Shown here in pieces: positions 37,520-64,000 of a stretch of 64,000 nt of DNA. The notes beneath the pieces are model-generated. The model was not told where the DNA came from and made no database searches. It saw only the letters and a program-made list of their open reading frames with translations. The number at the start of each line of letters is the position of its first letter. Position 1 is the first letter of the stretch. Source of the DNA: Deroplatys truncata (lineage: Eukaryota; Arthropoda; Insecta; Mantodea; Mantidae); NCBI GenBank assembly GCA_030765065.1, contig CM060978.1, positions 113,689,692-113,753,691 of the forward strand, read 5' to 3'. The position numbers and the translations under genes were made by a program.

Positions 37520-37564
37520 GAAAAAGAGGCGGAATAATTCAAAGATGTACCACTAGCTTCAATT

Positions 37565-37850: not shown

Positions 37851-38607
37851 TGGCTGACTTACGATCTGGCAGCTATGTAACGTTTATGAACAACCATGAC
37901 ATGTATGGTCATCGCAGCCTTCGGATCCCCAAGCGGCGACCTTTGTGCAGTAGCCAAACACTTGTTCCCTACCCTCCCTAACCGCAAGCACCATAAAATC
38001 TTAGTGACATCCATGTGCATATGCGCGTTGTTGCCAAAATTAAAAATAGTATTTAAAAGCAAAACTTTGCAGGTGATTTCCACATGTACAGAATACAATC
38101 ATGCAGTTTGTCTGCTTGCTTTACACACAAAATAACTATGTAAATAACTATGAATCGCATAGTAATTACATTTAAGTTGCAAACGCTTTAAAATATAACT
38201 GAACTAATGAATGATCTGAACTAATATACTGCGCTACAAGAATAGAAATGCATGTTAACATATCCGAGAGAAACTTAGAAACATGTTCCGAATAAACTAT
38301 ACATTGTTGGACTATCATTAAATAATTAAAATACATAAATATTAATTTATTTTGAAAGGAACTCTTACTCCCAAATCAAAGCATCATTTTTGATTATGCT
38401 GTGCGCGGAGCTATGGTAAAAAGTTTTTTATCACTTGTATCACAACAATGTTTTATTAATATAAAGCTAATACAAGAAGTTGTGTATTGTTTAAGGTGTA
38501 AGATTTATAAGCATGACATCTTCTGTTTACTTAAATGAATAGCTTTATTATAAAATGCAGGATAAGTAAAAATACGAAGGCAAAAGAAAGAAAATAAAAA
38601 AAAAATC

Positions 38608-39180
38608 TTATGTATTATATTCACAAGATTATCTCTACTCACTCTTCTACAAACTACTTTCACAAAAGCTTATTCTATCTACTTCTTAAATAATAAGATA
38701 AAATTTCATTGCACATATCGTTGTAAATATAAGGATACATAGGCTAAAGCGATAGTCAGATTTTTAAAATACAGATGACTATATGATGACTTTGAAATTC
38801 CATGCTCTTAGCATGACCACGAGGAAAATACAAACAGAGACTTCCAACTTGTATTTCAAAATTCAAACCAACAACAAAAAATTTCTCGGAAATGGTTAAC
38901 ACAATTTGACCTAAAATTTGTCCTTTACCGAGATTGCATTTTACGCAAGGTAAGATTTTGTCTCTCTCTTAGAATTTACCAGTAATACAACAAGTTGAGA
39001 ACGAGGAAAATTTTACAAGTTATTCCCAGAATATAAAATTCATGATACAAATTTTATTTTTCCTGCAAATATCTTAAACTTGCGGTATTTTACTAAAAAT
39101 CGTTAAGCTGTTTTTGAGAAATTCAAAACAATAACAAACATTTTTCCACATAAAAGGTTCTTTTCTACATGTTCTTGAAC
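38608..39180 (-). repeat. ACTTTCTCTAC repeat fragment in left arm
   Basis: Minus-strand copy beginning at the 3'-end block ('aaaatcttatgtattatat', 'caagattatctctactca'). It runs to the 'ttttccacataaaaggttc' block and is truncated before the 5' end. Confidence 0.65.
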
Positions 39181-39205
39181 ATTACACATAAAAATCTGGC
39201 TTTGC

Positions 39206-39325
39206 TTATTCAGTTTTTGTAGCCCTTTTCTTCGTGGTCTTGGCATTACTGATATTCGGCAGAGGGTCACTTGCTGGTGCGACCGGAGGGGCATCAACTT
39301 GGTTCGTTTCCCAAGGTCTCCACAT
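39206..39325 (-). CDS. 39-codon ORF in left palindrome arm, unknown
   Basis: The ORF starts MWRPWETNQ and ends KRATKTE. It is the mirror copy of 41437-41556 and lies downstream of a TATA-like 'ttatatag' in the same orientation. I do not recognise it. The WRPW letters equal the Groucho-binding tetrapeptide, but that motif works at the C-terminus of Hairy-type repressors, so this is probably chance. It could be a first coding exon, a short peptide or no gene at all. Confidence 0.25.
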   Translation of the reverse strand: MWRPWETNQVDAPPVAPASDPLPNISNAKTTKKRATKTE

Positions 39326-39668
39326 CTTAATTAAACTATTAAACGCTAATAACTATTAAACACTGCTAAACTTACAAAATTGCACTAAGTAAAACACTAT
39401 ATAACTTCTCTGAAGAAGTAATATAGAAGCTTAGCTGAACATGGAAGAAAAGCACGAGCGAACAGTCACAGCTGCTAAAAACCGAAGAAACAGCAGAAAT
39501 GACATTGCAACAACGCTTTGCTTTGGTGGAGCTGGAGAAAGGACCACGTGTTGTGTTTAAGGGATGGGAAGACCCTACTAATCGTTTACTGATGGGTTTA
39601 TGGTCAGGCTTCAAAGCTTTCCGTTCGCTTTGAAGCCGGTTGGGGAAAGGATGCCCGCGACTAGTTTA

Positions 39669-41093
39669 TATACATAGTTGCTTTTTTTGGGAAGGGCCTT
39701 AAGCACTCAGCTAGATATACTGCAAACAGCTTTCCTAAACCCCTGCTTGTTTCTTTTCTTCCACATGAGCTTAACACTATGTCTTATGAAGCAAGCATCT
39801 GAATTATATTTCTGCATTTGTACATAAATAAGCTCATATTACTTAATTTGTAATCATTTCTAAGCAAATATTTATCATGAATGTGCAATATGAATAGAAA
39901 AATAAACTATATATGTGTGTGAATTTCTAACAAATAGAAAAAGTCATGTGAATGCTGCATTTCACATTTTTTCTTGTCCCCCCTTTTATCTCACAAGAAA
40001 CTGCAAATTTATGAGTGTATAACAACAACAATAAGATTAATACATTTTATTATTATTATAAAAGTAGTTGTACACTAGACAAAGGGCAGCTTATTCCACA
40101 AGATTAATAAGACCTGCACTATCCAAACTGCTAAAAACAATTTTTATTATCAGGTACTTCATTGCAGAAGTGGCAACAATTAAACTTGTCAGTAGTTGTG
40201 AAATGTTTAGTCCAGGTAGTGTAGATGGGGTTGCCAACTTTCTCTTCTTTTGTATCATGACTTTGAAGGCAAGCCCAGGACCTCTAACCCGAGGGGAGGG
40301 GAGACCACAACAGTTCAATCCTCCAGCAAGAGAAATATTTTGGCTCAGTATTTCTGTTGTTTGGGAAAGTTGCCATGGTAATGTGACGTCATTATTGCTT
40401 GTCAAGCTATGGGAGTGAAGAACTTCTGTCCCCACACTGAATATTCTATTGCACCCTCAGGTAGCAGTTTGTAGGTTGTAACCTAAAAGCTTTAAATGAA
40501 GAGTCAGTCAGTGAGTAGGTGTAAGCATGTGAGCACTGAATGTCTTGGTTCCTTCTTTTTTGTTTGTTTGTTTTCAACAAAATAAAATACGATGTCATGT
40601 GTACCTATGAGTAGTCAATAAGTAGTGTGAGATTGTGAATACCTATTACAAGTAAATTTGTGCTTCTTTCTTTTTATATATATGTTTCCAATTATATCAA
40701 GTGCATTTTGTTACAAACTCTGTTTAATAGGTGGAATAATAAGAACAAGAACATAACCTGTTAATTACTGGGTAGCCAATTAATTCATTGCAAATTTCTG
40801 TAAAGAAACAAAATATAAGCTTTGGGAAGTTGTATAATATAAAATTAAAAGATTTTTGTTTTTCTGAATTTTGTTGGTTATGCTCTATTGTATACTTTCA
40901 AATAATAGAAGACTTTGGTTTCTTGGACAACAGTATTGACTTAATATGCAAACAAGTAGGGTGAATAATATTAATAGTTATTCCAATTTTAGCATGCATT
41001 TTTTTTCATACAGCATTTTTCACTTTTTTTCTACACCACAAGCCCCCACCTAATGGGTTTAATAAATGCTAAATTACATAGAATGAATACAGC
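39669..41093. other. palindrome spacer, CpG-poor
   Basis: 1425 bp between the arms, with very few CpGs (for example 'tgacgtcatt' near 40383). It resembles the DNA right of 42.9 kb more than the arms. A remnant of the dispersed repeat's 3' end lies near 39925-39965 ('aaagtcatgtgaatg'). The ORFs at 40068-40435 overlap on both strands and are not recognised. Confidence 0.6.
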
Positions 41094-41124
41094 TAAACTA
41101 GTCGCGGGCATCCTTTCCCCAACC

Positions 41125-41155
41125 GGCTTCAAAGCGAACGGAAAGCTTTGAAGCC
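41125..41155. repeat. short perfect hairpin at arm inner end
   Basis: 'ggcttcaaagc', 9 nt loop, 'gctttgaagcc'. The mirror copy is at 39607-39637. It sits about 30 bp inside the arm's inner end and could be a protein-binding site or the subterminal hairpin of an element. Confidence 0.7.
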
Positions 41156-41436
41156 TGACCATAAACCCATCAGTAAACGATTAGTAGGGTCTTCCCATCC
41201 CTTAAACACAACACGTGGTCCTTTCTCCAGCTCCACCAAAGCAAAGCGTTGTTGCAATGTCATTTCTGCTGTTTCTTCGGTTTTTAGCAGCTGTGACTGT
41301 TCGCTCGTGCTTTTCTTCCATGTTCAGCTAAGCTTCTATATTACTTCTTCAGAGAAGTTATATAGTGTTTTACTTAGTGCAGTTTTGTAAGTTTAGCAGT
41401 GTTTAATAGTTATTAGCGTTTAATAGTTTAATTAAG

Positions 41437-41556
41437 ATGTGGAGACCTTGGGAAACGAACCAAGTTGATGCCCCTCCGGTCGCACCAGCAAGTGACCCTC
41501 TGCCGAATATCAGTAATGCCAAGACCACGAAGAAAAGGGCTACAAAAACTGAATAA
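41437..41556 (+). CDS. 39-codon ORF in right palindrome arm, unknown
   Basis: Identical in layout to the ORF at 39206-39325 and pointing away from the palindrome centre. 'agttatatagtg' near 41357-41368 could serve as a TATA box, with an initiator-like 'gcagtt' about 20 nt on. Rich in Pro and Ala in the middle and Lys/Thr at the end. No family recognised. Confidence 0.25.
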   Translation: MWRPWETNQVDAPPVAPASDPLPNISNAKTTKKRATKTE

Positions 41557-41581
41557 GCAAAGCCAGATTTTTATGTGTAAT

Positions 41582-42154
41582 GTTCAAGAACATGTAGAAA
41601 AGAACCTTTTATGTGGAAAAATGTTTGTTATTGTTTTGAATTTCTCAAAAACAGCTTAACGATTTTTAGTAAAATACCGCAAGTTTAAGATATTTGCAGG
41701 AAAAATAAAATTTGTATCATGAATTTTATATTCTGGGAATAACTTGTAAAATTTTCCTCGTTCTCAACTTGTTGTATTACTGGTAAATTCTAAGAGAGAG
41801 ACAAAATCTTACCTTGCGTAAAATGCAATCTCGGTAAAGGACAAATTTTAGGTCAAATTGTGTTAACCATTTCCGAGAAATTTTTTGTTGTTGGTTTGAA
41901 TTTTGAAATACAAGTTGGAAGTCTCTGTTTGTATTTTCCTCGTGGTCATGCTAAGAGCATGGAATTTCAAAGTCATCATATAGTCATCTGTATTTTAAAA
42001 ATCTGACTATCGCTTTAGCCTATGTATCCTTATATTTACAACGATATGTGCAATGAAATTTTATCTTATTATTTAAGAAGTAGATAGAATAAGCTTTTGT
42101 GAAAGTAGTTTGTAGAAGAGTGAGTAGAGATAATCTTGTGAATATAATACATAA
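41582..42154 (+). repeat. ACTTTCTCTAC repeat fragment in right arm
   Basis: Mirror image of the fragment at 38608-39180. Confidence 0.65.
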
Positions 42155-42859
42155 GATTTTTTTTTTATTTTCTTTCTTTTGCCTTCGTATTTTTACTTAT
42201 CCTGCATTTTATAATAAAGCTATTCATTTAAGTAAACAGAAGATGTCATGCTTATAAATCTTACACCTTAAACAATACACAACTTCTTGTATTAGCTTTA
42301 TATTAATAAAACATTGTTGTGATACAAGTGATAAAAAACTTTTTACCATAGCTCCGCGCACAGCATAATCAAAAATGATGCTTTGATTTGGGAGTAAGAG
42401 TTCCTTTCAAAATAAATTAATATTTATGTATTTTAATTATTTAATGATAGTCCAACAATGTATAGTTTATTCGGAACATGTTTCTAAGTTTCTCTCGGAT
42501 ATGTTAACATGCATTTCTATTCTTGTAGCGCAGTATATTAGTTCAGATCATTCATTAGTTCAGTTATATTTTAAAGCGTTTGCAACTTAAATGTAATTAC
42601 TATGCGATTCATAGTTATTTACATAGTTATTTTGTGTGTAAAGCAAGCAGACAAACTGCATGATTGTATTCTGTACATGTGGAAATCACCTGCAAAGTTT
42701 TGCTTTTAAATACTATTTTTAATTTTGGCAACAACGCGCATATGCACATGGATGTCACTAAGATTTTATGGTGCTTGCGGTTAGGGAGGGTAGGGAACAA
42801 GTGTTTGGCTACTGCACAAAGGTCGCCGCTTGGGGATCCGAAAGCTGCGATGAACATAA

Positions 42860-44795
42860 ACCTAAGTGCTTAGTGCCACTTCACACACCATGTTAAAACT
42901 ATTTGATTTCTATCAACACAATGATGGATTGCATATTATGAAAAACTGCCAAAAATCTCAATATATTTTTTCAATAGTTATGGGGGATCTAGGAATCCTT
43001 TTGCCTCTAACCGCACCCTAATTACATTATTGCTAAAATTTAAACAGCCCAAATTGTGTATACTGTCAGGGAACTTTCAGAGCCAGTAACTAGAGCTTAT
43101 TTTTCTGCCACCTTTGCATTTTGAAGCACAAATGTTATGCATTTTAGTGCTTATACAAGTAAATAAAAATTATGAACTGTATAAGGGGTTTTCTCCTGAA
43201 TTAATAATTTTGGATTTAATAATTTAGGACATGGTATTTTATAACTAGCATTTGCTGTTTTTTCCCCTTGAATATGAAGTTCTGTAAAATTTGTCTAAAA
43301 CTAAATAGTATAAAAAATAAATTCATTAATTTTGCTAAATAAAATCTTTTCATACAAAAATAGAAAACAAAGCAAACAAAATCATAGCAGAAAAGTGCAT
43401 AGCTAAGTGAAAAGAAAAAAAAAACAAAAAAAAAAAAACAAAAAACAAAAAAAAAAAACACACACGCACGCACACGCCCATGCCCACGCACGCACACACT
43501 ATATATATATATTGTTCATTTTTCTGAAAACACCCTATGGCAGTGCATGCTGTAACAAATGCACATCCATTCCATTCCAACATATTGTGACGTGTGGGTC
43601 ACATTGCCCAAACTGGTGCTTATACCAGATGTCATGGAAGCCCTGGTGGCTTCAACAAGTGGGATGAGGAAGGGGACATAATTTTCTAGACGGGAGAGCT
43701 TCACCTAGCAGAGAGGGAAGGGGGTGTGCTGCTGGGTATAGCAGTGGAAAAGTGTGGCTGCTAACTATGGCATGTAACTCTGGTTCCAAATTTAGTTTTA
43801 ATTATCTACAGTACTACTCCACACTACAATAAACATGTCAGCAATATTTAGTTAGCTGAAGTTCTACTCTACATTAACACAAATATCAACCAATGATAAG
43901 GCTGCATTGGACAAGTTTAGCTGTGGTACAAATAAGTTGAGCTCTCCATGTTCCGGAGGTCTTGTGGCATTGCTGAAGATTAGATTAAAGATTAAAAGAC
44001 TGAGTGTCACAGATTCCTGTTAGCACATGTAGCAGAGACTGCTGTCAAAAAAACTCTTAACTTTAAATACCCAAGGAGTATGCTGACTAGTATTTTATCC
44101 AGTACTGACATTTGTGGGTGTCAGCATGATTTTGCACACTCCATCCATGTGCTGAAAGCTTCGTGAATATCTGGAAACGTTCTTTAAAACATCGTATGAT
44201 ACTTCTGTGCTTACATAAAGATCTGGAAAATGACTCACCAGAATTTCTAAAGCCAATTTTATCGTTCTTCTTAAGAAAAGGTTTGTTCTGAACATTCTAG
44301 CCTTATAAAATTATATTTATCACATTCTTGTAAAATAAAACTATAACTGTCACAATATAATTAGGTAATTATTCGACATGCACACCAATTTTCAGAAATA
44401 CCTAAACTAGCTAAGTTGATGAAAATTGTTGATATCTAGACAGCTTAAAGTTTGTGCTCTAGTCACAGTCCTGTATCCTTCTGATTAGGTGTCATTTATG
44501 TCATTAGAATTTCCTTGCAGTGTTAAAATTGCAATAGTCATGCAGCCATTTCAGCTGACACCAAATTAATTAAGTGAATGCTTTTTAACATTCTGCTTGC
44601 ACAGTTCAAAGTTTTTCATCTTTCCAGCTTCTTTTTTCTGCCCCTATCAAACTCCATATCTAGCAAGTCCCCAACCCCCAAAAGAAACGAAAGAAAACAA
44701 AACAAAATGGACAGAGGACTGCCCAAGCAAAGGCCATTCTATTTTCAAATAATAAAGGAAATAGACATTAAGATATCTGCAATTCAATGATATTC
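42860..44795. other. CpG-poor, probably intronic DNA
   Basis: A-rich low-complexity DNA with (CA/CG) and (AT)n tracts lies at 43413-43511. No HECT-domain exon, which would be expected next downstream of the Hecw exon, was recognised on the minus strand. Confidence 0.5.
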
Positions 44796-44799
44796 CTAC

Positions 44800-45086
44800 C
44801 TCAGTAAGATGGTAAGATCAATGTCATCGCTCAATCGATCCAGAGCCATAGTCCCATCAACACGCACTGCATTTATCTTGTCCCGAAGTGTTTGCGAGGT
44901 ACCCACTGGAGCATGCCTCTCCTTCAAGATATCCAAAATGTTAGGCTGGCGCAAGAACGCCACTACTTTCTCATTGTATGCTGTTGGAATATCTGGTGGA
45001 GCCATGACACGAGGCACAATGGCTCCAGATAAGCTCACAGGACTGCAACCACAATTCACGGTGGGCCTTGGAGGTGGTGCTGGTGC
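44800..45086 (-). CDS. Hecw: internal exon of HECW-type E3 ubiquitin ligase
   Basis: One 287-bp exon on the minus strand. The acceptor is 'ttattttcag' before GCACCAGC at 45086, and the donor is 'ag|gtagga' with the intron starting at 44799. It opens in phase 0 and ends two bases into a codon. The peptide begins APAPPPRPT. After about 45 residues it contains the block AYNEKVVAFLRQPNILDIL, then ALDRLSDDIDLTILL, which I recognise from HECW1/HECW2 and fly Hecw. This is the helical-box region before the C-terminal HECT domain. HECW proteins carry C2, WW and HECT domains and transfer ubiquitin to substrates such as p53-family or cytoskeletal proteins. Those domains lie on other exons not seen here. 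The flanking DNA is CpG-poor, as expected for a methylated gene body. The longer ORF down to the in-frame stop at 44796 includes four intronic bases. Confidence 0.85.
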
Positions 45087-47984
45087 CTGAAAATAACTTT
45101 TCTTGTACAACTTTCACCCTTGTATTGTCAAATAGATATAATGAAACTTAACCAAACAGGTGACCTTACCACTACAGTAAAAAATGCATCAATATGGTCA
45201 CCAACATTTATAATAAGCAGTAGATCAAGGGGTAACTGAATACTACACACTGTGATGTTTATTCTGCTTATTGCAAGTGTTTGCATTTCAAATCCCTTGA
45301 TGAAGTAAGCAGTTCAAGATGTAGCACATCTCCAATGCGATACAAATTGATCGCACATTGATCCAAAGAAGCAACATGTAAAATATCTAAACTTAAGGAT
45401 ACTCAAGAAGCCTTAATAATTCAACAGAACTCAAGAATTGGGTGCAAACATTGTGCTTAAGAGTTCTTTTTAAGACCTAACTCCCTCTTTCTTCCACTCG
45501 TTAAGATATTTATAATCCCATTCTGTGTCTTCTCTAGAAGAATGTGTGTACAATATCCAATTGATATTTCTATTTTACACATTTTATTGTTGAATTATTG
45601 TGATTATAAAAGAACATCTCTGTTCAGCATTTGCTAGCATTCGTATTTAGATCTTTCTTTCCCCTTTCTGCACATATGCACTTTTTTCCTTTCTTGAATT
45701 TTTCCAGAAGATTATGGCATTTTTCAAAATTGTATTGATGTGGCATGTTAATTAAATTCATTGAAGCCTCCATTTCCCCAGTGTATTCTAAGCTATTTAA
45801 TCACCTGATGCAATTCAAAACTCATTGCATACACTTCATTAGAGCATTAGGCTCTTTAGACACTTTCTCATACTAGTACAAGTTACAGATTCTCATCTTG
45901 GTTTCATCAAGCCACTAATATGTTGAATAAGTTCTTCTAGGAGCATAAGGAAACTAAGTATTTGAAATGGTGCCCTACAAAAGTGGAAATGATTCTGCAG
46001 CTCACATACCCAAAAGCAATTGTAACTTAAATGCTACAGCAAACAAGTAATTTTAGTACCAAGTGACATATTCTGTGTACATTCTGCATTTCACATTAAA
46101 AACATTTGTTTAGCTTTGTAACAAGTGACAATCTGCATTACATGCAGCAGCAAGTATATTAAACAATTTAAATATCTTACATCAAACTTAAGAGAGAATA
46201 ATAGAAAGCAATATTTCCCACATATAGGTGTACTCAGGTTTTAACACCATGCATTAAAAAAAGTAAATAAGATTTTCTTTCACAATCAATGAGTAAGCAC
46301 AGTTACATTCCTTGTGAGCTAGAATTGAATTTAAAATGGGTCTATCTTCTCTATCATATTCCTAAACCCATAAAAAGGAAATTTAAAATGTTTAATTAAA
46401 AAAATAGGCTTTTATGTTTACTTTTAATCTGAAATTTGTTTTTAATATTCAGTTTGGAAATAATATAAAAAAATACTTTTCCGGAAACAGCAAAAGTGGA
46501 TTATGCATATATCACAAACATTTAATCTCTTTTTCTAAAATTTCCATAGTTAATGATTAAAACTAGCTTTTTCTTGTGTATTATTCACTGCTCACAAAAA
46601 CTGCAGTATTTGCAGAAATCTGTAATTCCTCCAAAACTAACTTTTATTTTGTGTCTAGCTTGCACTAAATACGTACATTTTTGCACCTGGAGAAGAAAAA
46701 AAATGCAACGAAATTTCAAAATTATTTTTCTCAAAATCACAATGCACTTTGCACAAAACTTTACTATAATTTGTTTACAAAACAGTAAAATTGGAAGCAA
46801 AAGATTACCTTTATATATGCATATGATGCAAAGGACCTTTATACTAAGTGATCCTTTTAATTTTTGAAAAATGCAAGATATTTTAAACTTTTGTATACTG
46901 CTTTGTTAACTTATACATAGTCATTTCTAAAAAAAATCTGCAATATGTATAAATACAAGTAAATTAACAAACATTGTTCATATAAGAAAGAAACAAAGAA
47001 AAAATATACATAAAAGCAGCATTTCACACATGCACCAAATAAGGCAGAAGGCAACAGCTTGCAGGGGACAAAAAGGCAAGAACACTAACTACATAAACCA
47101 GCAGTGATTAAAAAAACAGATTGCCCAAAATAATGTAACTAGATACTTGCCTTAAAACTGATCAGCAAAATATGCTACAAAATACACTGAATAACATGAC
47201 AGCTGTTTTAATACACATGCTTCTATTTTTACTTGTGTAACTCAAATCACTTTACCACATTGATATTTGATGCACTTGTCACCTAATACAAAACCTCTAT
47301 CTGATGCATAGGTGCATCCCAGAGGCTTTTTATGTACAAGAAAGTATTGAAATCAATGCCACTGGTAGACAGCTTAGTTGAGATATTATCAGCTTTGAAG
47401 TATTTCTCATTTCTGTCTAAAATACTTTGGTGCAGAGAATAAATTTATGACAGCAGCCTATACTTCAATAGTACAAAATAAGGGCTTTGAAGTTAAGTAC
47501 AAATTACAATTTTCTCCAAGTCTGCAGCTGCAATGAATATCCATCAAAATAAGATAATGCCCTGTTGAGTTAAATAAAATAATAACCCGCTAAGTTACTC
47601 TGAACAAAAATTATTGACATTCAATTAGTGCTTTATACTGCTATGTTGACATGCCACAATCTCGCTGGAAATTAACACATAAATCGAGGAGAGCTTTTTC
47701 AAAATTTTATAAATGCAGGATATTGAATTTTTCAGGAAGTGCATCCCCCCCCCACCTAGAGAGAGTCATTAGAAGAATTTAATATCTTTTCCAGCATTAG
47801 ATCTTATTGTTTTAAATAGAATGTCCTAGTAAGATAAATTGAAACAAAATTTGCATTATGCAGGATTATAGGATGATTTATTCAGGTTTTTCAAAACTTA
47901 ATAAATGTATGTTTACATAAAAGAAAAAATTGTTCTAATTCTGTGTTACAGTTTCAGTTTTGTTCTTTATTTGTATGCAACTAC

Positions 47985-48027
<43 letters not shown>

Positions 48028-48240
48028 TTATTATAATAATTCCTATGCATATACAAGTTTTCAGTTTACTGTTGGCTGCATTATCACTTATTACATACTA
48101 AACATTTGTTTTTAATTTTATTTTGTCAACTTTATTCAGAATAAATATAATAATTAACAACAAAAGCAAAACACAAAATGAATACGTTAACATGCAATGA
48201 TTTATCCTTAATAGTGCACATAGTACAATAATCTAAGCTA
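45087..48240. other. CpG-poor, probably Hecw intron
   Basis: Very AT-rich with few CpGs (roughly a dozen in 2.5 kb by eye). No upstream Hecw exon such as a WW domain was recognised. (TTTA)n at about 47985-48028. Confidence 0.5.
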
Positions 48241-48267
48241 CTAAAGTCATGTATCATTTACAAAATA

Positions 48268-48603
48268 CTAGCGGACCCGACAGACGTTCTGTTTGTTCAT
48301 AATTTGTTCCTGTTTCTCGGTGTGACTATATTGGCATCGTGTGTTAATTTGTTGTTCTGCATTTCCCATGAAGTAGATCTGCAAAAATTTAGGATCGATA
48401 TCAGGTATTGAGAACAGAGAACCAATTCGATGATACACTTGGCCCTGAATCTTAAATGTTGAATTAAAATTACAGCCATCCTCATTCTCAATGATTTTTG
48501 TTGCTCCAAATGATGTCATTTGGAAGCAAGAATTGAATTTACGAATTTTACGCAAAAACAATTTTGATTGAGATGTATTTCCAGCCAATAGTGCCCTGTG
48601 CAC
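48268..48603 (-). pseudogene. Helitron replicase/helicase fragment
   Basis: A 111-residue open segment with the blocks KLFLRKIRKFNSCFQMTSFG, QGQVYHRIGSL and KFLQIYFMGNAEQQ. This order is characteristic of the region before the Helitron-like N (Rep) domain of animal Helitron proteins. Nothing of the Rep HUH motif or the PIF1 helicase follows. The frame stops near 'ctagcggacccgacagacg', a sequence that itself looks like a repeat end. A broken, inactive remnant. Confidence 0.7.
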
Positions 48604-48838
48604 ATTGCTACGCCACTAACTGAAATAAATTTGAAGGAAAGACATTACACAAATATTCAATTTATTTTGAGTCATTTTATCGATTTTGTACCAACTCAGA
48701 AACCTTCATGGGCTCATGCACAACACTTTGATGAAGATCATCACATGATCAAATGCATAGTTTACAATTCTATAAAGGACATACAGACAAACAATCATTT
48801 TTATATATATAGAAGATTGAGCATTGCTAGCCTGATAT

Positions 48839-49330: not shown

Positions 49331-49334
49331 AAAC

Positions 49335-53285: not shown

Positions 53286-53292
53286 TACATAC

Positions 53293-53543
53293 ATGTTAAT
53301 TAATTTTCTTCACACATGCTGTGTGTCGGCTGAAGTTGGAAAGGTAGAATCAGACAAAAATTCAACAATATAGCCAGTATTTGAACCATGGATCTTTGGC
53401 TTGTCCTGTCACTACTCTGACCAACTGAGCTACCACGGCAAAATGCTGGCACACCAGTTCAAAACCCAGCTATGGCATTGCATTTCTCTCTGATAATATC
53501 TTTAACCTACACACAGCAAGTGTGAAGAACAATTAATTAACAT
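53293..53543. mobile_element. foldback element built from tRNA-like arms
   Basis: The outer ends 'atgttaattaatt...ttcttcacac' face each other as inverted repeats, continuing through 'tgctgtgtgt'. Inside the left arm (minus strand) is a tRNA-like unit with A box 'tagctcagttgg' (53421-53432) and B box 'ggttcaaatac' (53378-53388). The right arm holds a second, partial copy ('agttcaaaacccagctatgg', plus strand). Two related tRNA-derived segments therefore lie head to head in about 250 bp. Confidence 0.65.
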
Positions 53544-53699
53544 TAATTGACCTAACAATGGTTAACTATGAAGTCTGGGACTTAAAAGTACTTATTTACA
53601 AAACTGTAAGATGCCAATGGGGTATGTTATCTCAAAATGAATTTGAGAAAGCCTTGTGATTTACGGAGTAAAATGTGAGTCAGTTGGGAAATTTAATGT

Positions 53700-53850
53700 T
53701 GTGCCAACATGTTGCAATGGTAGTTCAGTTGGTCAGAGCAGTGACATGGAAAGCTGAAGAACCATGGTTCAAATCCCAGTTATTGCATTGAATTTTTCAG
53801 TCTCATTCTACCTCTCCAACATATACATGTGTTTAACAATCACTGCCAAA
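53700..53850 (+). mobile_element. tRNA-derived SINE related to the foldback arms
   Basis: A box 'tagttcagttgg' at 53721-53732, B box 'ggttcaaatcc' at 53766-53776. The body is 'ttattgcattgaatttttc' to 'tacctctccaacatatacat'. It is the third copy of the unit in the foldback element next to it. Confidence 0.65.
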
Positions 53851-54732
53851 CTTACTTTTTCTTTGAGTTCAAAATAAATAACTCACAGATTTACTTTGAA
53901 AAGTTTAGTGAACTTAATAACTTTTAGCTCCATGGTTTTGACTCTGAGACACACAACATATTACAAAGTTGTATGCTTGCAATTTTTAATACTCAACCTT
54001 CAGTCAATTCCAAATTTGCTTATAATTTTAAGAATTATGCGCTTCAGTGGACCTACATTCTTTGCTTTATCAGGTATCTAATATTTAGAATTTATGATTG
54101 GATGTTTCTCTAATATTCACACAAAATACCCATGAGATACTTATTTTTTTTCCACAGCAATTGCCTTGTGACTTAAGTTTTATATGCTTTAGCCCAAGAA
54201 TAACAATCTTAGCTCTACTTACTTCTGAGGAATACATAGAGTGATTAAATATATGCAGGTACTACCCTCAAGATCTATTTTATGCATTTGGATTATAAGA
54301 GAAACATTTTTAAATTTCTGCTTGCAAATGGAGAGTACTTGAGGCAAACATTCCACTATTATGCATATCAGCCATTATTATAATTATTACAATATTAAAC
54401 ACAGAGGGCAAATTCATCTGGATTAAGAAAATTAAAATATGCATGCCATATACATTTTGGTAGTAAATATAGAACACTAAAATTTGCATAGTGGCAAACA
54501 GTGTTATGTGGTAGTATTACTGCTGTAGTACTGGTTTGTAAAACTTGCTTCCTAGCAAAGGTGCCATTACAAAATCTTACTCATGGAAGTCTGAAAAAAA
54601 AATGACAAGCAAACATTCAAAAGAAACTTGTCTTGAAATAGAGGTTTGCAATATGGAGAAAAAGTATATTTTAGTACACTGGCATGATATGGCAATGTAA
54701 TACAGAAGTGTGAACAGAACTGCTTTTGATTG
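53851..54732. other. CpG-poor, probably intronic DNA
   Basis: No gene recognised. Confidence 0.5.
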
Positions 54733-54747
54733 AACATAATGGATATA

Positions 54748-54918
54748 TTTAAAGGTGAGTCGGAATTGTTACACTAACATCACTTAAGTTTACTCACTTA
54801 ACATGTTTCGGGAAACTTAAGTGAGTAAACTTAAGTGATGTTAGTGTAACAATTCCGACTCACCTTTAAATAAATTCAATACACATCACTGTTTCTAGCT
54901 TCTTTTCATTACAATATC
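54748..54918. mobile_element. 171-bp hairpin insertion with 15-bp target duplication
   Basis: The direct repeat 'aacataatggatata' flanks the insert at 54733-54747 and 54919-54933. The insert begins with a perfect inverted repeat of 54 bp (54748-54801 with 54817-54870) around a 15-nt loop that holds a mini-hairpin 'gtttcgggaaac'. A tail of about 48 bp follows. The target duplication shows an inserted unit. Its length is typical of target-primed retrotransposition, not of DNA transposons. Confidence 0.8.
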
Positions 54919-55005
54919 AACATAATGGATATAGTTGATCTGAATTGTAACAATGCTGGATACAGTGTTTTTAGAATGGAAAATTCATGCTAAATTATTA
55001 GTCAT

Positions 55006-55185
55006 ATTACTTTCTCTACTACATACCAATAGTAATCCTATGAAATACATGTTTTAAAGGCCTCTTAACCCTCCAAAAAAGCATTTTCAAAAAAAGGCCA
55101 GTGTGCATGTGTGTGTGCGTGCGTGTACATGTGAACAATATAACTCAAAAATGAAAAGTCCCATTAATACCTAATTTGGTATTTA
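55006..55185 (+). repeat. ACTTTCTCTAC repeat, 5' part, split by a LINE
   Basis: Begins 'attactttctctactacat', keeps the (TG)n site at about 55100-55132 and stops at 'cctaatttggtattta', where a LINE is inserted. It resumes at about 56563. CpGs of the consensus are TG/CA here. Confidence 0.8.
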
Positions 55186-56562
55186 TTTATTTATTCATTT
55201 ACACTGAAAATTCCAAGGATCAAATTAATCTAGGTATGGACTTTACTAATGAGGCAGTAAACCACAAAGATTTTCTGTTGCCGAGTTATTTAGAATAGGT
55301 AGTTTAAGAGCATGATTTTGAACTGAGATAGGCAATTCTTTCATGTCAAAAAATGCGAGACTGTTGTATGTTTTGACAGCACTATGTAAAATACCTTTTA
55401 TTCCATATTTGGTGCAGTCTTCCATGGTCTAGGGATACCATGCTAGCCTCTAGCTCTCAAGGTCATGGGTTCAAACTTGGCGGAGGGCAATGGATTTTTT
55501 CAGGTGTAAAAATCCTTAGCATGGCTTCCTTCAGAGGGGAGTAAAGCCAGTGGTCCCATGTTGTAGATTTGTGGCATGTAAAAGAGCCTCAAGCCTGATA
55601 AAAAGGCCTCTGAGCAAAGTTTCCGGTCTTTCATGCTCAATATAGAATAGAATGCCAAGAACCATAGCAGTTAAAGAGCATCTAAAAATAAAACTCAATT
55701 TTTTTCCCCCATATTTAACTGATTCTATGGAGATATGACTGACTGATCTTGTTTTGTCCAAGTGAATATCTTTATCGTGTTTTATAACTGAGTTGGTACA
55801 CAGGAGATTATTTTCAATTTTATACATGAGTAGAGAGATTCACTATATTTGCACAGAAAGAAAAATTGCAGGATGCTTGTTTCCTTATATTCTTCTGCAG
55901 AGGGCTTAAAAATACTGAACCGAAAAGTATTTTAATAGCTCTTTTGCAGCATTTCTAAACAGTTTACTTGTTCTTTATTACTATTGGACCATACTGCATT
56001 TAAATACAGAAACTTGAGGTAAAAGAAAGTAAATAAAAACTTCTTAATAGCTGTTATCTAACTAAATCTTTTAATCTGTACAATATGCAAATAACAGAAT
56101 TTGTTTCATTGACAATATGTTCAATATGGCAAGACCAAGTCAAGGTTGAATGCAATGTAAGACCGAATTATATAAACCTGTTTGAACTACATTATCTTTG
56201 ATTTTGATTGATGTACTATTTGTACTGACTAGAGGGTTTGTGAAAAGCATATATATATTTCCTATATTATGTACAAAATAATATGGATTTAATACAGTTC
56301 CTTGTGGGACTTCATGCTTTACTCTTAATATTGGGCTGGAATAATTGCTTAAGCTAAGTACAACACTCTTAGGAGTTAGCTTCTAAACCAGTTCATGGCA
56401 ATTCCTCTTATTCCTGGCTGTGCTAATTTTATTTAAGGAATTCATGATTGGCAGTATCAATTATTTTATTTAGATAAATGAAAAGACCACCTGCAATTTA
56501 TTCATTGTCTGAAGTTTTTGTAATAAGTTAACTACATCATGCACTACTGCTTCTGTGTTTAA
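55186..56562 (-). mobile_element. jockey/CR1-type LINE, 5'-truncated, decayed
   Basis: On the minus strand a reverse transcriptase is readable with breaks. A DTANHEFL-like block (compare FDTVNH) and GIRGIAMNWF occur near 56400-56450. The B-motif-like EVPQGTVL lies near 56292-56315, and STLTWSCHIEHI plus an RAIKILFG-like block further on. These are standard for the fingers/palm and the post-RT region of non-LTR elements. An S1 SINE is inserted in its C-terminal part. The short TTTA-rich tail near 55186-55200 marks its 3' end. The insertion splits a dispersed-repeat copy. Numerous stops; inactive. Confidence 0.75.
55425..55698 (+). mobile_element. SINE S1 copy with decayed CpGs
   Basis: A complete S1 copy inside the LINE. 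Most CpGs of the other copies are changed: 'aggtcgcgggttc' is 'aggtcatgggttc' and 'tttacggcacgtaaaa' is 'tttgtggcatgtaaaa'. This is a clear methylation-type decay. Confidence 0.85.
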
Positions 56563-57216
56563 ATTCAATATCTTCCAAAGAGTGGCAAACATTTTTCAAG
56601 AAAATTCTCCCACCCCAGATTACTTTTACATAATTTTTTTTTGTTACTTTTGATTTTCTCAAAAATCACCCAAATAATTTTTATTAATATAACATATTTA
56701 AAATATTTATAAGGTATGTCTTGAATTTTCTAGGAATAGTCTGCTAAGTCCTCTTCATTCAGAATGAATTTTGTATAATTTTGTTTAATGGGTAAACCAT
56801 AAGAAATATATAAAAATGCACTACACAAAAAATATAGCCCTTTTTAAAATCCACAATTTATTTCAAATAAATTTGTTTTTGATGTCAACCATTTCCAAGC
56901 CATACATTATTACTGGTTTAAATTTTTCAATACTTTTGTCATTTGCTGTCACTATTAAGTTATTTCTTGTAGTCGTGGAAATGATAAGGCATTTCAAGGC
57001 CAGCATATACCGACTAGCTTTTAAACATCTATTGATTCAGTTTCTTTTATCTCCCTTGTACCCACAACGAAATGGTAATGAAATTACTTCTGTAAATGTT
57101 GATTTTGATTAACATGAAGTAGATGGAGAAATAAAGCTTTCATATGAATAGTCTGCTGAAGCTATATGTAGCAAATGGTAGTGGTAGAGAAACTCATGAG
57201 AATATTACACATAGGA
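56563..57216 (+). repeat. ACTTTCTCTAC repeat, 3' part, after the LINE
   Basis: Continues the copy at 55006-55185 from 'attcaatatcttccaaaga' through 'gggtaaaccataagaaata' to 'gtagagaaactcatgagaa'. Confidence 0.8.
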
Positions 57217-57219
57217 TTC

Positions 57220-58345
57220 TTTTTTATTAAGCAATAACGAAAGCTACAGTTCTGCTCAAATTATTGCATTAATTACCGCTCTCTCTCCCCTCTTACCCCT
57301 ATCCATCCCTTCCCCTTTTTTCCCTTTTCACCCTCTCACTCCTCACCTCCATAGCCTTCTTCCTCTCTCTATCCTGACTTTCTCTGTGCAACTTGGATGT
57401 AATGTGATGTTTTCAAAACAGTAATAAAAGTGTTTTTTTGCATTGTTGATAATAATAACAATAATTAAAATATAGTAAAAGACTTAAGAGGTCACAAACT
57501 TGTACCTGTTTCTTATCCTTGCTATGCAATCACAGCTATCTTCTTTCATGGTAAGTATTGTGCGGTCCAAACCTTATGATGTTTGGTGAGAACCAATATG
57601 GTGCAACTGTGTTGCTGCCAAACTTAACTCTGCTTCGACAGAGTGTTCTGTGTTTGTGGTAAATATTATTGCAACTCTATAAATGCTAGAACAGAGCCTA
57701 TCACTGAAAGAGCTGAACAGCATATTACACTAAAGTTAAGCTCGCAATTGAGGTGCCTACAACCCTTCACTACTAATTCTGATTTTTGTTATTGTCCACC
57801 AAACCTTAATTGCTTCAACCTGGAGGAAGTTATGGTTGTAGACTTTATATGTATCCTCATTTATCTATTAAAGGATTTCTTCAAACAATGCATGGCTTTC
57901 ACGTAAAGGAATGTTTCTTGAACTGGAAGCTCTGAATACTTCTTTTAGCAATTTGCAATATGTCTTGATGCAGCCATTATTTTATGAAAAGACATACATT
58001 TTAGTTCATCAAATTGTGAATAGCTACTATAAGCATAACTAGAACTAAAAGTCTTCATTTAAACATCACGAAAGATGCCTATAAATTAATAAGGCATAAA
58101 ATTTGGGTGTAAAAAGATGAGTCTTTTTTGCACTTGTTCATCTTTTATCCTAGCTTTTATTTGCTTTTCTATAATATGAAATACGCATATTGCATTTTGA
58201 GTTTTACAAGCGGCAAACTGTACTGTGCGCATAAGGCAGTGCTGCACCACTGCTATTCACTGGTGTTGTATTAGTGGACATGCCTCAAAAGTCAGGAAGT
58301 TTGGACCCAATAGTAGTTTACATTCATGATTAATAGTAATAAAAA
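57220..58345. other. CpG-poor, probably intronic DNA
   Basis: A pyrimidine-rich tract lies near 57275-57390. The 87-codon plus-strand ORF at 57643-57906 is not recognised. Otherwise nothing. Confidence 0.5.
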
Positions 58346-58346
58346 A

Positions 58347-59095
58347 TCTGATGTGTTGCAACTCACATGACTTACCCTACTCAATCTTGTACAAACTATT
58401 CTTATAAACTCTTATTCTTCTATTTACTTCATGTTAATTGAGATTAAACATTTGCAGAAATTGTCTTCTTGTTTTTTTCAAGGTACGAAGGGATTAGCAG
58501 AATAAGTAGGCTTTAGACAACAGTCAAATCTTTTATGAGCGGATCGCTAAGTAATGGCTTTGAAATTCCTTTCTCTTTGCATGGCCAAGAGGGGGAAGGG
58601 AAAACAAAAGAAGAACAAAAAGAATAATGACTTCCCATTTGAGAAAAGTATAAGTATTTTAAAATGTAAACCAATAACAAGGAATATCTGCAAAATGGTT
58701 AATGCCATTTAAAAAAAAAAATGCCATAAATTGTAAGCTTTAACAACGATCTACATTTTTGGAGTAGTAAGATTTTGTTTGTCTTTCTCTTATCGTTTAC
58801 CAGTTATGCAAAAGTAATTCAGAATGAAGAGGACTTCAGAGGCTTTTCTCAAAACGTTCAAGATATACTTTTCATTTATCATGAAAATATTTTAATCAAA
58901 TCATTAGAATCTTTTTGAGAAAATAAAACTTTTCAAAAACTTTTCCACGTAAAGTGAATTTGGGAGGAGGAATTTTCTTGAAAATCTTCATGACACATCC
59001 TTGAAAGATGAAGAACTTAAATACCAAGTTTGGATTTTAACTGACTTTTCATTTTTGAGTTATACCATTATCTCCCTCTCCCCACAGAACTTTTT
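58347..59095 (-). repeat. ACTTTCTCTAC dispersed repeat, lacking 5' end
   Basis: Minus-strand copy from 'aaaatctgatgtgttgcaa' up to 'tttttgagttataccatta', where the next copy begins. Confidence 0.8.
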
Positions 59096-59098
59096 CTA

Positions 59099-59712
59099 AA
59101 ATCTGATAAGTTACATTCACATGACTTTATCCTCTTTATTAGTGGGCACACAAATTATTCTTACAAAAGCTTATTTTCCTTATCTACTTCATTTTAATTG
59201 AGACAAACCTTTGCAGAAATAGCTGCATTACACATTTCATTATACATACAAAGGGAATAGAGATAGTCAAATGTTTTAGAACTGGATGCTATATGCCTGC
59301 CCTTAAATTCCATACTCCTTCCATCACATAACAAAAAACAACTGAAAAACAAAAGGACTTCAACAGTAATGGCTAAGTAATGAACAATTTGAACCATTAA
59401 TAATGAATATCATGGAAATGGCTTAGGCTACAAAAAGAGTATTTGAAATAAATTGTGTGTTCTAAAGAGATCTACATTTTTTGTGCAGTAGGTTTTCGTC
59501 TTATCACTTAATGTTTACTAGTTATACAAGATTAAACAATATTCCTTCCAAATGAAGAGGATGTACCGGCTATTCCCAGAACATTCTTAATATACATTTT
59601 AGTTGTATGTAAATATCTTTAATATATGGTATTTCAATCAAAATCATTGGCAATTTTTTAGAAAATTAAAAATTTTGAAAAATGTTCTGTAAAGGTGGGG
59701 AATTCTTTCTTG

Positions 59713-59719
<7 letters not shown>
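59099..59719 (-). repeat. ACTTTCTCTAC dispersed repeat, part 1, split by a SINE
   Basis: Minus-strand copy starting 'atctgataagttacattca' and running to 'tgaaaatct', where a SINE is inserted. It resumes at 60005. Confidence 0.8.
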
Positions 59720-59773
<54 letters not shown>

Positions 59774-60004
59774 CTCTCTCGTTTTGTTTTTACTGCATTG
59801 GTCTTATTGACAGCCTTTCCTTTGGAACTTATTACCTCTTGGCAATGGTGTTAACTCGTATTCTGTTGTTGGGTTTCTTTGCACTTTGTGGGTTTTCTCA
59901 TTCATACTTCCAAACTCTGGGGAGGATAGGGAATAATCTTAGCTAGAGAAAAATTCCACGCAGCCAGAAATTGAACCCGGGAACCCCTGCACAGCATGCA
60001 GGTG
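59720..60004 (-). mobile_element. third SINE family, (TC)n tail, 9-bp target duplication
   Basis: Flanked by 'tgaaaatct' at 59711-59719 and 60005-60013. On the minus strand a B box 'gggttcaattt' lies at 59968-59978 and the A box is missing, so the head is truncated. The element ends in a long (GA)n, seen as (TC)n at 59720-59777 on the plus strand. Target duplication and simple-repeat tail indicate LINE-assisted insertion. The plus-strand ORF starting in the (TC)n is an artefact. Confidence 0.7.
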
Positions 60005-60263
60005 TGAAAATCTTTGTGTTGCATCTTTGGAAGGTACTGAACCTAAATACCAAGTTTGGTATTTATCCGACTTTTCGTTTTTTGAGTTATGCTGTTCATG
60101 CACACACATACACACACACAGACCTTTCTCTAAGAATGCTTGTTTTGGATTTCAGGGGCCTCAAAACATATATTTCCAGTGAAATCTTGGTATCAAATTT
60201 TTGGGAGGAGTATAATACCTTCTCTAGCTGCTATATAAATGTACATGGTAAAGAAAGTAAAAA
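60005..60263 (-). repeat. ACTTTCTCTAC dispersed repeat, part 2
   Basis: Continues the copy from 59719 through the (CA)n site at about 60098-60120 to the 5' end 'aaagaaagtaaaaat'. CpGs are largely lost ('ttccagtgaaatcttgg'). Confidence 0.8.
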
Positions 60264-60300
60264 TGCCATTTTTTGGGTTCAGGGGGTTTCAAAGCATATA
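60264..60300 (-). repeat. second tandem repeat 5' unit, split by mariner-like element
   Basis: 'ttttttgggttcaggg' to 'caaagcatata' repeats the 5' part of the family immediately after the previous copy. It resumes at 62070-62157. Confidence 0.75.
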
Positions 60301-60544
60301 CAGTGTTACTATAAGTGACCTTTCCGATTACAAGCTTCAATAATACTTAGAAACATGGTACTGATATCAATGGAAAGAGAAACTGAAATGCTTTTGTTAT
60401 CCAATTGGTTCACAACATTAAATCATATGTACTACTCTTGAATGCAAAAATTGGAAAACATGAAATTGGTATCAATAAAAATAGAAACTCTAACACTTGG
60501 TTCACTGGAAAATATGAAACAGAAATATTTGGTTTACAACCATA

Positions 60545-60840
60545 CATAAATCACATGTGCTCAATGTGAGCCTCCCCGTGTCACATGACACACATAAAGC
60601 CTGTAGTCCAATTTGTGCCATAAATGTTGTAGCATTGAACCATCCACCAATCAAATGGCCTCTGTGATGCAGACACAAAGATCCTTGATGTTAGGTGGTA
60701 AGAGTGGGAGATACACTTGTTGTTTAATAAAACCCCAGAGAAAAAAAATCACAAGGTGTGAGGTTGGGAGAACCTGAAGGCCAATGCAAGCAAGCAAGCA
60801 AGATCTTCATGGCCAGCATGTCCAATCTGTTCCGTCTCCT
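60545..60840 (-). pseudogene. mariner-type transposase, C-terminal fragment
   Basis: Readable as SPNLTPCDF, a frameshift in the poly-T run at about 60745, then a VYLPLLPPNIKDL block. The end is close to the usual tail with VTRGG and an EHM-like end. The third catalytic Asp position reads Asn (SPNL for the usual SPDL). The N-terminal two thirds are missing, apparently lost before or with the LTR insertion. Confidence 0.7.
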
Positions 60841-60858
60841 AGCAACAAAATTATTAAG

Positions 60859-61741
60859 TGTCTGATACGGTAATTTGTATCACAAATTACTTAAATGTAA
60901 ATAATGATTGTAATATGAATATGTATTTTTATGTGACATTGATTTCAGATGTTTATTAATTGTAATTATTATTGGTAAATAATAATATACGGCTTTACTG
61001 AAACTGTCAATAATAACGCAATAATGCAGCGAGGGGGTGAGTTGTTTATCATTACCGGGAACAAGGAAGTTACGTAATGTTTCGCGCGGTTTTGGTAGAA
61101 CCTTCTAGAACATTTCCTAAAGCATATGTATTAGTGGTTTTCATTGGATATTAAAATAGACGCTAATGTTGGCGCGTTTTATTAGCCAATAGCAGTTCAT
61201 TTATAATCTTTAGGCGTATCTTGATGCAGGCCTATAAATAGGGTAGGTTCAAGGTAGCTTGCCCTTCAGTTCATCAAAATTTCGTGTACACTACACGTCG
61301 GCAGTAAGTCCTTCATTTCGTCAAGTTACGCGCAGCAGAATTACGAGAATTATTATAAAGTTAATTCTACACAAAGTTGAAATACATAGTTAAAAGTGAT
61401 AAGTAAGAAGTTATTACAAACAGTTTCAGTTTGGCGAGTATCTAAATCAATTTGTAAAAGTGTTAGTGAACGTGTTTCGACAATAAAAATTATAAAACCA
61501 ATTTTCTTCATTAAGTATAATTTCTGGATAAAAGATTCCTTTCCGTTTCACAACCTTGTATAGAGATACATGTCCTACCAAGATAAGATGATAGCTAGCC
61601 GGAGGACAATATACGAAAATTAAATTCTTTCGGAAACTAATTGATGCAAATTGCTACGCCAGATGGAGCTACAAACCAAAACAAGGAGTGACGTCACAAG
61701 ATGGCAACGCATGAAGTAAAAACAACATTGATACTACTTCA
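60859..61741 (+). mobile_element. probable solo LTR or 5' LTR of an LTR retrotransposon
   Basis: The segment starts with 'tgtctgatacgg' and ends with 'ctacttca', giving TG...CA ends of about 883 bp. It has upstream promoter boxes, TATAAATA at 61234-61241, an initiator TCAGTT with A at 61269, and AATAAA at 61482-61487. Primer-binding-site-like sequence follows immediately. This order (U3, R, U5, PBS) is that of an LTR. No gag or pol follows. It is CpG-rich inside a CpG-poor region, so it is a younger insertion. A displaced host promoter is the main alternative. Confidence 0.55.
61098..61272 (+). promoter_or_regulatory. heat-shock-type Pol II promoter
   Basis: A heat-shock element with alternating 5-bp units lies at 61098-61115: GAA, TTC, GAA and an imperfect fourth unit ('agaaccttctagaacattt'). 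A CCAAT box ('agccaatag') lies near 61180-61187. TATAAATA (61234) and the initiator TCAGTT (61267-61272) complete it, about 35 nt from TATA to the initiator A. The combination is typical of strong inducible arthropod promoters. Activity is inferred. Confidence 0.6.
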
Positions 61742-61742
61742 A

Positions 61743-61905
61743 ATTGGTTCCACAACGTGGGGCTAACAAAAAACACAAAAACATATTACGTAAACAAGCA
61801 TCGACCGTTGCATATTGGCTCCCATACGTGGGGCAGTTAAAGTTATATAAACAAACATTTGTAAGCATGTTCTCTTACAAATTGGCTCCCAAACGTGGGG
61901 CTACA
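61743..61905 (+). repeat. three tandem PBS-like motifs
   Basis: 'ttggttccacaacgtggggc' near 61744, 'ttggctcccatacgtggggc' near 61825 and 'ttggctcccaaacgtggggc' near 61883. Each begins with TGG, as required to pair with the CCA end of a tRNA. The first directly follows the LTR-like end, the normal PBS place. Confidence 0.65.
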
Positions 61906-62069
61906 ATAATGTTACAATATTTGTAACATTAATACTACTTACATGTCGCACCAACACAAGAAAAATATTTTAGTTTCTCTTTCCATTGATACCAATATTA
62001 TGTTTTTATGTGTTTCCTAAGGATAGTAATTCTAGTTTGTAATCGGAAAGATCATTTATAGTAATACTG

Positions 62070-62157
62070 TATTTCCAGTGAAATCTTGACATCAAATTTT
62101 TGGGTACAATACAATATTTTCCCCTCTTACTATAAATGTAGTACAGAAAGTAAAAAT
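62070..62157 (-). repeat. ACTTTCTCTAC repeat 5' unit, resumed after mariner-like element
   Basis: 'tatttccagtgaaatcttg' to 'tacagaaagtaaaaatt', the 5' end of the family on the minus strand. Confidence 0.8.
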
Positions 62158-62159
62158 TG

Positions 62160-64000
62160 GTATAACTCCTTAAATACTCATTCTATCAACATTTTATAAT
62201 TAACCAAACTTCTCAGATATGTTATGTTTATAAGCTTCTGTTACATAGCTTCTGTTAAGCTTGTATACATGATGCAAATTAGCACACCTTAAGATGCAAA
62301 AACTTACAGAATGGAATAAAATATTTAATCTCATGAAAACTTTTAACCATTAATCAAAGTAGCCCTTCATATGCTTTACTTTCTCTTACCCCATGTAAGG
62401 AAGGGGAAGTACTAAATTTATGATTTCACTGTAAATGCCAGATTTCAGACCACTGGGAGAGAGAGGGGAAGGGGACGTCAGAGTCCAGAGTAGCCAGTAA
62501 TGGCGTTGGCTTTCAAGGCTGGAGAACCATAATGTTAAAACTTTTCAAAAAATATAACATTCCATCCATAACTGCCAGGCATCACTCACAGATATGGATG
62601 AAATGTAAACCAATGACCACAGCAGCAAACCACAGAAGAAAACTTTGAATTTAAGTTAAACACTTTTAAGTATGCAAGGCAAAGCTTTCATTGAAATTTC
62701 CGCCACCTCTAACAACTGTTAATATGCAAAAGGTTACCTATTTTAGATTTACTCAAAATGCTGATCATCATGGCTATAATGGAGTGCACAAAATGCAATG
62801 TACTGATAGGTTGGTTTCCATGGTGAGGGCACTGCAACTGGCTAGAAATGATGCCTTGTTTGCATACAATTAGTAGACATTCAGGGCTCTTCTGTAACTT
62901 TGTTGTTAAGAGGGTGACTACAATTATTATTTATTAAGCTCTTAACCGCTCTTAACATAAATGCCACTATTTGACATTTTGTAACTCATTTATTATCGTG
63001 ATATTTGTTTTCTCGTGCTTTGTTAGACAGCTGGAGTGACTAATCGAAAATTAGGACTGCTGTGATAGCATTTTGCTTTTCACATTGCCACCAGCACCGG
63101 AATACAGACTACCAAGAGCTTTTGTTACTTTTGCTTGCCAAGTTGGAGACAAATCATGCTGTGAAAATGTCACATGAAAAATATAAAATAAATGTGGATT
63201 TTTAAAATTCACACCCATTGCTTAGAATAGCAAGATTTATACCTTCTTGTGATCCAAAGAATTAGATTTTTTTATGGGGAAAACTCCCAGCTGAGTTTAA
63301 TTTTACGTTAGGAAAGGGACAAAAGAAATAGCAACACAGTTTCATGTTTTTTTTATGCAAGTTTCATTAATGCATATCAATCCGGAATGATTGCTCAATT
63401 TTCTTTATGGTTTTTGACTTTTAAGTATACTTCTTAAAGATACCAATCATCGTGCAGATTTTTCTGAAATTTTAACATATACCATCAAGCATAAGTAGAT
63501 ACTTATATTTTTATTTATGATTTGGCAATGTTCAGCTTTAGTTCAGCTATGTGAAAATGTTCTTGCATCTTAACAATCTTTGATTGTAAATCATAATTGG
63601 TATATGATAATATCTGTATTATTTTAGGTACTTGTTAAATAGAAGGTTGTAGTGAAAAGAAAGGTCAGTTTCACTATCTGTTTTATCTGAGGGAATGTTG
63701 CAGCTACAAATATTTTATTGCGGATTATTTTTCATACAAGATTTATTAAGTATAAATTATCACTTTATAACCAAACTGACTGACTTCTGTTATGCTCTTC
63801 CTTTTCCAACAGCATTAATATAAATTCAATGTTCTACAGTTATGAGAAGCTGGTAAATAGCTTTCTGCTAGCCACTTCTTTTAGCAGATTAGAAATTATC
63901 TTAAAATGATTCTGGGAACAAAAATTATCCGTTGTAATATCCTACAGGTCTCACAAGGGCTCAGTTCCTAATCTTAACCTAAAAATGAGGCAAATATATT
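62160..64000. other. CpG-poor, probably intronic DNA
   Basis: No gene recognised. A short degraded match to the dispersed-repeat 5' end ('tttactttctcttacccca') lies near 62378-62455. Confidence 0.5.

Follow-up and report, generated by a model that had tools for sequence, protein, structure and literature searches.

A sharp CpG step at the inner end of an inverted duplication beside a Hecw exon in the mantis Deroplatys truncata

INTRODUCTION

DNA methylation in arthropods marks some of the genes and, depending on the lineage, transposable elements (TEs) as well; in Blattella germanica, the highly methylated class takes in a fraction of 0.387 of genes and 0.145 of TEs (PMC7343188). In the termite Zootermopsis nevadensis, exons and introns are methylated in blocks of up to hundreds of kilobases, in which CpG is depleted save at promoters, and repeats within introns are methylated too (PMC5111047). 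Here we describe a stretch of 64,000 nucleotides from Deroplatys truncata (assembly GCA_030765065.1, contig CM060978.1, positions 113,689,692 to 113,753,691 of the forward strand; hereafter the window), in which a CpG-rich part meets a CpG-depleted part that carries an exon of a Hecw gene, and in which one arm of a near-perfect inverted repeat (the palindrome) ends where the CpG level drops.

The kind of phenomenon is already known, and this locus is a clear instance of it with a built-in comparison. In the Zootermopsis nevadensis blocks the CpG-rich exceptions are promoters (PMC5111047), whereas our window has a recent duplicate and a putative young element in their stead; moreover, the edge in the window appears to sit at a structural junction, unlike in that species, and methylation here is deduced from the DNA sequence. 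The arthropod survey measured methylation, whereas the window offers a mutational trace only, and does so in introns (PMC7343188). Methylation of intronic transposons in cnidarians is a case from another phylum, based on bisulfite data, in which intergenic transposons are methylated too (PMC8857917). As for the palindrome, it is similar to Drosophila inversion breakpoints formed by staggered breaks, where a segment beside the break is doubled and inverted (PMC5080602). In the Drosophila inversion O8, the duplicates are 380 and 128 bp long and lie at two breakpoints, whereas those in the window are 1765 bp long and flank 1425 bp (PMC5080602). No closer case was noticed among the matches listed on palindrome gene conversion and on CpG decay of intronic insertions.

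RESULTS

CpG content drops in a single sharp step

The initial annotation of this DNA had described CpG as common to the left of ~39.67 kb and scarce in the spacer of the palindrome and past 42.86 kb. Computing the CpG observed/expected ratio (o/e) confirmed that the two sides are unequal (segment o/e, 0.89 vs 0.08 and 0.25) and placed the border more sharply than had been stated. Two things had been overlooked, namely that the right arm of the palindrome is CpG-rich inside the poor side, and that a CpG-rich insert lies near 61 kb. The window is divided as follows.

1..37903, no strand: CpG-rich domain, o/e 0.89 (0.888; 1102 CpGs; GC content, 0.362); most scored repeat copies retain most CpGs
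37904..39668, + strand: left arm of the inverted repeat, CpG-rich (o/e 0.817; 41 CpGs), with a CpG level indistinguishable from that of the DNA leftward
39669..41093, no strand: spacer, strongly CpG-depleted, o/e 0.08 (0.078; 3 CpGs)
41094..42858, - strand: right arm, an inverted copy of the left arm (o/e 0.820; 41 CpGs)
42859..64000, no strand: CpG-depleted domain, o/e ~0.25 outside the insert near 61 kb, which we read as a probable long-methylated Hecw gene body

Within the last of these, o/e is 0.248 at 42859-61000 (121 CpGs; GC content, 0.328), 1.124 in the CpG-rich kilobase at 61001-62000 (35 CpGs), and 0.263 at 62001-64000 (14 CpGs). The CpG level of the spacer is somewhat below that of the right domain (p = 0.03).

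A single change point, best placed at 39673, raised the log-likelihood by 167, whereas 1000 shufflings of 500-bp blocks gave a gain of at most 40.6. The best position of the step falls at 39658-39673 (95% interval, 39673-39855), right at the inner end of the duplication. A two-state hidden Markov model (HMM), for which the input was CG versus TG/CA only and to which the palindrome coordinates were not supplied, set edges at 39658/39673, 41090/41103, 42848/42851, and 60990/61947. Three of the four arm ends (39668, 41094, and 42858) are thus at, or no more than 10 bases from, an HMM edge, and the model set no edge at 37904, the outer end of the left arm.

The loss is confined to one dinucleotide. 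When positions 1-37903 were compared with the right side (right arm and 61-kb insert removed), CG was the sole one of the 16 dinucleotides to collapse (o/e from 0.89 to 0.24, left to right). Rises were seen for CA (1.10 to 1.27), TG (1.12 to 1.31), and GC (1.08 to 1.30), and the remaining 12 dinucleotides shifted by at most 0.12 between the sides. A collapse of CG together with a gain of TG and CA is the mark that C to T changes leave at CpG.

Repeats on the two sides differ at CpG sites

Two repeat families with copies on both sides of the step, a short interspersed nuclear element (SINE) and a dispersed repeat, were scored at their CpG sites against a consensus built from the left copies in leave-one-out fashion. 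Since such a consensus biases the choice of sites toward the left, a side-neutral count was added, in which the CpG effect shrinks yet persists for both families. The right-hand copies to which the initial annotation had pointed are the following.

55417..55705, + strand: SINE copy with CpGs mostly turned into TG/CA (2 kept, 14 decayed)
60005..60264, - strand: dispersed-repeat copy (2 CpGs kept, 6 TG/CA)
62068..62157, - strand: dispersed-repeat copy (0 CpGs kept, 4 TG/CA)

All three are decayed, as had been claimed for them under the names of the S1 SINE at 55425 and the copies at 60005 and 62070 (the last in fact lies at 62068-62157). A fourth, near 55006, is present and distant (65-82% identity to the copies listed); it was excluded from the counts, as were other short copies.

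For the SINE, the five left copies keep 63 of 79 CpG sites, with 9 turned into TG/CA and 7 changed otherwise, and the single right copy keeps 2 of 16, with 14 turned into TG/CA and none changed otherwise. As a control, C to T change at non-CpG C/G sites amounts to 26/413 on the left and 8/90 on the right (p = 0.36). The side-neutral choice of sites gives CG at 69/144 on the left vs 2/32 on the right (p = 5e-6), and at consensus TG/CA sites a gain of CG was found in 2/82 vs 0/17 (p = 1.0). Per unit of other divergence, CpG decay is ~13-fold faster on the right (23 vs 1.8), a crude figure given the one right SINE copy. The excerpted text of a paper on Blattella SINEs gives no CpG result (PMC9191728).

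For the dispersed repeat, the seven left copies (two of which are near-identical neighbours, at 98%, and so not independent) have 59 sites kept, 16 turned into TG/CA, and 14 changed otherwise; the corresponding counts for the five right copies are 2, 24, and 6. Because the non-CpG control was unequal between the sides in this family, the copies were split by divergence, into classes set post hoc with the counts already known. Among low-divergence copies, those on the left have 43 sites kept and 2 turned into TG/CA, and those on the right have 2 and 10, respectively (p = 9e-8); among older copies, the counts are 16 and 14 vs 0 and 14 (p = 5e-4). Side-neutral counting gives CG at 83/408 vs 4/106 (p = 9e-6), or 56/304 vs 4/96 (p = 3e-4) once one of the near-identical left copies is removed, and the gain of CG at consensus TG/CA sites is 15/415 on the left vs 2/119 on the right (p = 0.39). 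A further repeat set, DR2, has too few sites to be of use (left, 3 kept, 0 TG/CA, and 2 other; right, 0, 1, and 1).

The repeats had been proposed as a built-in clock of germline methylation. We consider decay of methylated CpG in a gene body, with the repeats as its clock, to be well supported by the sequence, because the loss is CpG-specific, TG and CA are gained, and repeat copies of similar divergence are unlike at CpG.

The right arm is probably a very recent copy

The arms are inverted copies with sharp ends, identical at 1762 of 1765 positions; the mismatches are at 37908, 37919, and 39380 only, and all 41 CpGs are common to both arms. The left arm includes an old copy of the dispersed repeat. 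The CpG level of this arm does not differ from that of the left domain (41/260 vs 1102/5962, p = 0.29) but does from those of the spacer and the right domain (p = 1e-8 and 7e-11, respectively). It is therefore likely that the sequence which was copied evolved without methylation and that the right arm is a newcomer in the CpG-poor domain, a very recent copy still awaiting decay. None of its 41 CpGs has been lost (upper 95% bound, 7%); at the SINE decay rate, this bound corresponds to ~0.3% ordinary divergence, a crude conversion that depends on the one right-hand copy. Youth alone accounts for the CpG richness of the right arm. Had the right arm long been decaying while gene conversion kept old arms alike, the left arm should show partial depletion as well, but its CpG level does not differ from that of the left domain (p = 0.29), so we rejected this explanation, even if a modest amount of gene conversion between the arms may have taken place.

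The palindrome had been taken for the border of methylation itself. That part of the initial annotation is not supported: the right arm lies within the poor side and is nevertheless CpG-rich, which is what a young copy of DNA from the left would show, and the step at 39668 falls at the end of the duplication, which points to a structural junction.

Other identities for the palindrome were considered and rejected. A transposon with long terminal inverted repeats is at odds with the differing histories of arms and interior (41 CpGs in 1765 bp vs 3 in 1425 bp; p = 1e-8 for CG vs TG/CA). Inspection by eye for a target-site duplication showed a terminal TA only, which any palindromic end itself provides. 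As a mobile element, the arm has no second full copy in the window, and it holds an old dispersed repeat. No repeat was seen that the right arm interrupts. As a gene, the arms offer nine open frames lying in or across them, the longest of 97 amino acids, without a Pfam match. For the frame at 41132-41323, PDB sequences gave one chance match (E 1.3) and the protein collection no candidate. Rfam gave no match at its gathering score.

The CpG-depleted domain contains a Hecw exon

The right part of the window had been said to hold a Hecw exon, and both homology and splice-site sequences bear this out.

44800..45086, - strand: Hecw exon (linker ahead of the HECT domain), 287 nt, with acceptor ...TTTTCAG and donor GTAGGA

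The ends of the exon were set from splice-site sequence alone. In a comparison with protein fragments, 29 of 33 candidates passed, the best with 82% identity over 98%, and three of the relatives are named HECW2 by their source; a human linker probe also matches the exon (E 2.7e-18). By homology, then, we take the exon to be real.

The linker exon presumably precedes the HECT domain, and on the minus strand the HECT exons are therefore expected at lower coordinates. A HECT probe, which Pfam recognised as such, found no HECT exon within the 64-kb window (best E 0.88). A WW exon was likewise not found within the window, so the introns must be long here.

Other elements in the window

The CpG-rich insert inside the depleted domain has the following limits.

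60961..61928, no strand: CpG-rich insert, putative LTR-type (long terminal repeat) element, bounded by TG...CA and flanked by a 5-bp repeat, TTAAT; ends tentative

Among three TG...CA candidates with flanking repeats of at least 4 bp, TTAAT is the sole 5-bp one, and a 20-base motif occurs in the insert in three copies with up to 3 mismatches. We regard the insert as a putative LTR-type element with CpGs still undecayed.

Also inside the poor domain, CpG o/e is intermediate at 48001-50000 (0.52 and 0.43), which may be an insert of intermediate age. A frame at 48271-48615 looks like a Helitron helicase; it has no Pfam match, and a Helitron near 48.3-48.6 kb was rejected. Short inverted repeats are present in the right domain at 53335-53820 (81% over 134 bp) and 54737-54881 (92% over 139 bp). 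In the CpG-rich domain, the frames at 21684-22004 and 26160-26462 match transposase models (DDE_3, E 1.1e-6; HTH_Tnp_Tc3_2, E 0.00067, below its cut-off).

DISCUSSION

Origin of the step at 39668

The CpG step lies at 39668, where the duplication ends too, and for that reason we take the step to be most likely a junction. The reading to which we lean, at slightly better than even confidence, is that the right part is a long-methylated Hecw gene body, that the left part is unmethylated, that the right arm is a recent copy, and that the step at 39668 is a rearrangement junction or an assembly join. The right part, Hecw intron plus exon, would have been methylated in the germline over a long time, and deamination of 5-methylcytosine would have stripped it of CpGs; the left part, arm included, would have evolved without methylation. 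The junction would have brought this unmethylated DNA against DNA of the Hecw intron. A recent event would also have copied the final 1.77 kb of the left DNA, in inverted orientation, into the methylated gene, 1.4 kb past the junction, where the copy would be too young to have decayed. The palindrome need play no part in setting methylation.

Several observations weigh against this reading. Exons are methylated above introns in most of the arthropods of PMC7343188, so methylation throughout introns is an assumption for this lineage. The SINE result depends on one right-hand copy, and in the dispersed repeat the non-CpG C to T control differs between the sides (98/1011 left vs 58/327 right, p = 1.5e-4). 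The claim that left-hand copies keep their CpGs holds for most of those scored and fails for the one at 12130-12692, which is mostly decayed (2 kept, 6 TG/CA, and 6 other). On the right, the CG fraction of the copy at 58338-58953 (0.093) lies inside the left range of 0.090-0.150. The joined flanks of the junction matched nothing informative as to origin, and strand skews proved too weak to tell which way the spacer is oriented. Finally, 39668 would be a native border if Hecw had an intron of more than 44.8 kb whose far side carries no methylation, as may be the case.

The latter bears on the strongest alternative, which we nonetheless think unlikely: that the step is a native methylation edge in or after Hecw, and that a later fold-back or staggered-break repair duplicated the adjoining DNA and ended there by chance. 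Genomes with mosaic methylation should have native edges, the order of arm, spacer, and inverted arm can by our reasoning arise from a fold-back or staggered break, and inverted duplications do occur at Drosophila inversion breakpoints (PMC5080602). Such an edge would, however, have to coincide with the end of the duplication, for which the chance is ~4% if the two fell independently within 5 kb (a rough estimate, 200/5000), and it would sit within a gene for which no HECT exon turned up as far as that point. It is because of this coincidence and of the missing downstream exons that we favour a junction over a native edge.

That the assembly misjoined the left and right parts, whether through a repeat or through a chimeric read, seems to us improbable, and more so than a native edge. 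Such an error would be consistent with the near-perfect match of the arms, with the abrupt compositional change found at the same place, and with the failure to find Hecw HECT exons beyond the join. A simple fold-back artefact, on the other hand, would run on into the reverse complement of the left part, and the sequence past the right arm differs from this; the 3 base differences between the arms suggest two assembled sequences, and the repeat families common to both sides indicate that the DNA probably comes from one genome. Least of all do we expect the CpG difference to have arisen without methylation, for instance as a compositional domain. We see hardly any room for this, given that GC content is close on both sides (0.362 vs 0.328), that the collapse is specific to CG with TG and CA gained, and that within one SINE family the copies are unlike at CpG and not significantly so at other C/G sites.

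Biological meaning

Within one window, the repeats allow CpG decay to be compared between what is presumed to be a methylated gene and its neighbour, at similar ordinary divergence. The same repeat clock marks the right arm as very young, and what had appeared to be a methylation border becomes a rearrangement junction that can be tested. A more specific form of the rearrangement, which we put forward tentatively and hold to be less probable than not by some way, is that at least 39.7 kb of unmethylated DNA recently moved into or against a methylated Hecw intron and left a fold-back duplicate at the break. If this is true, the undecayed right arm would date the event, and the locus would be a natural experiment on the spreading of old methylation into new DNA.

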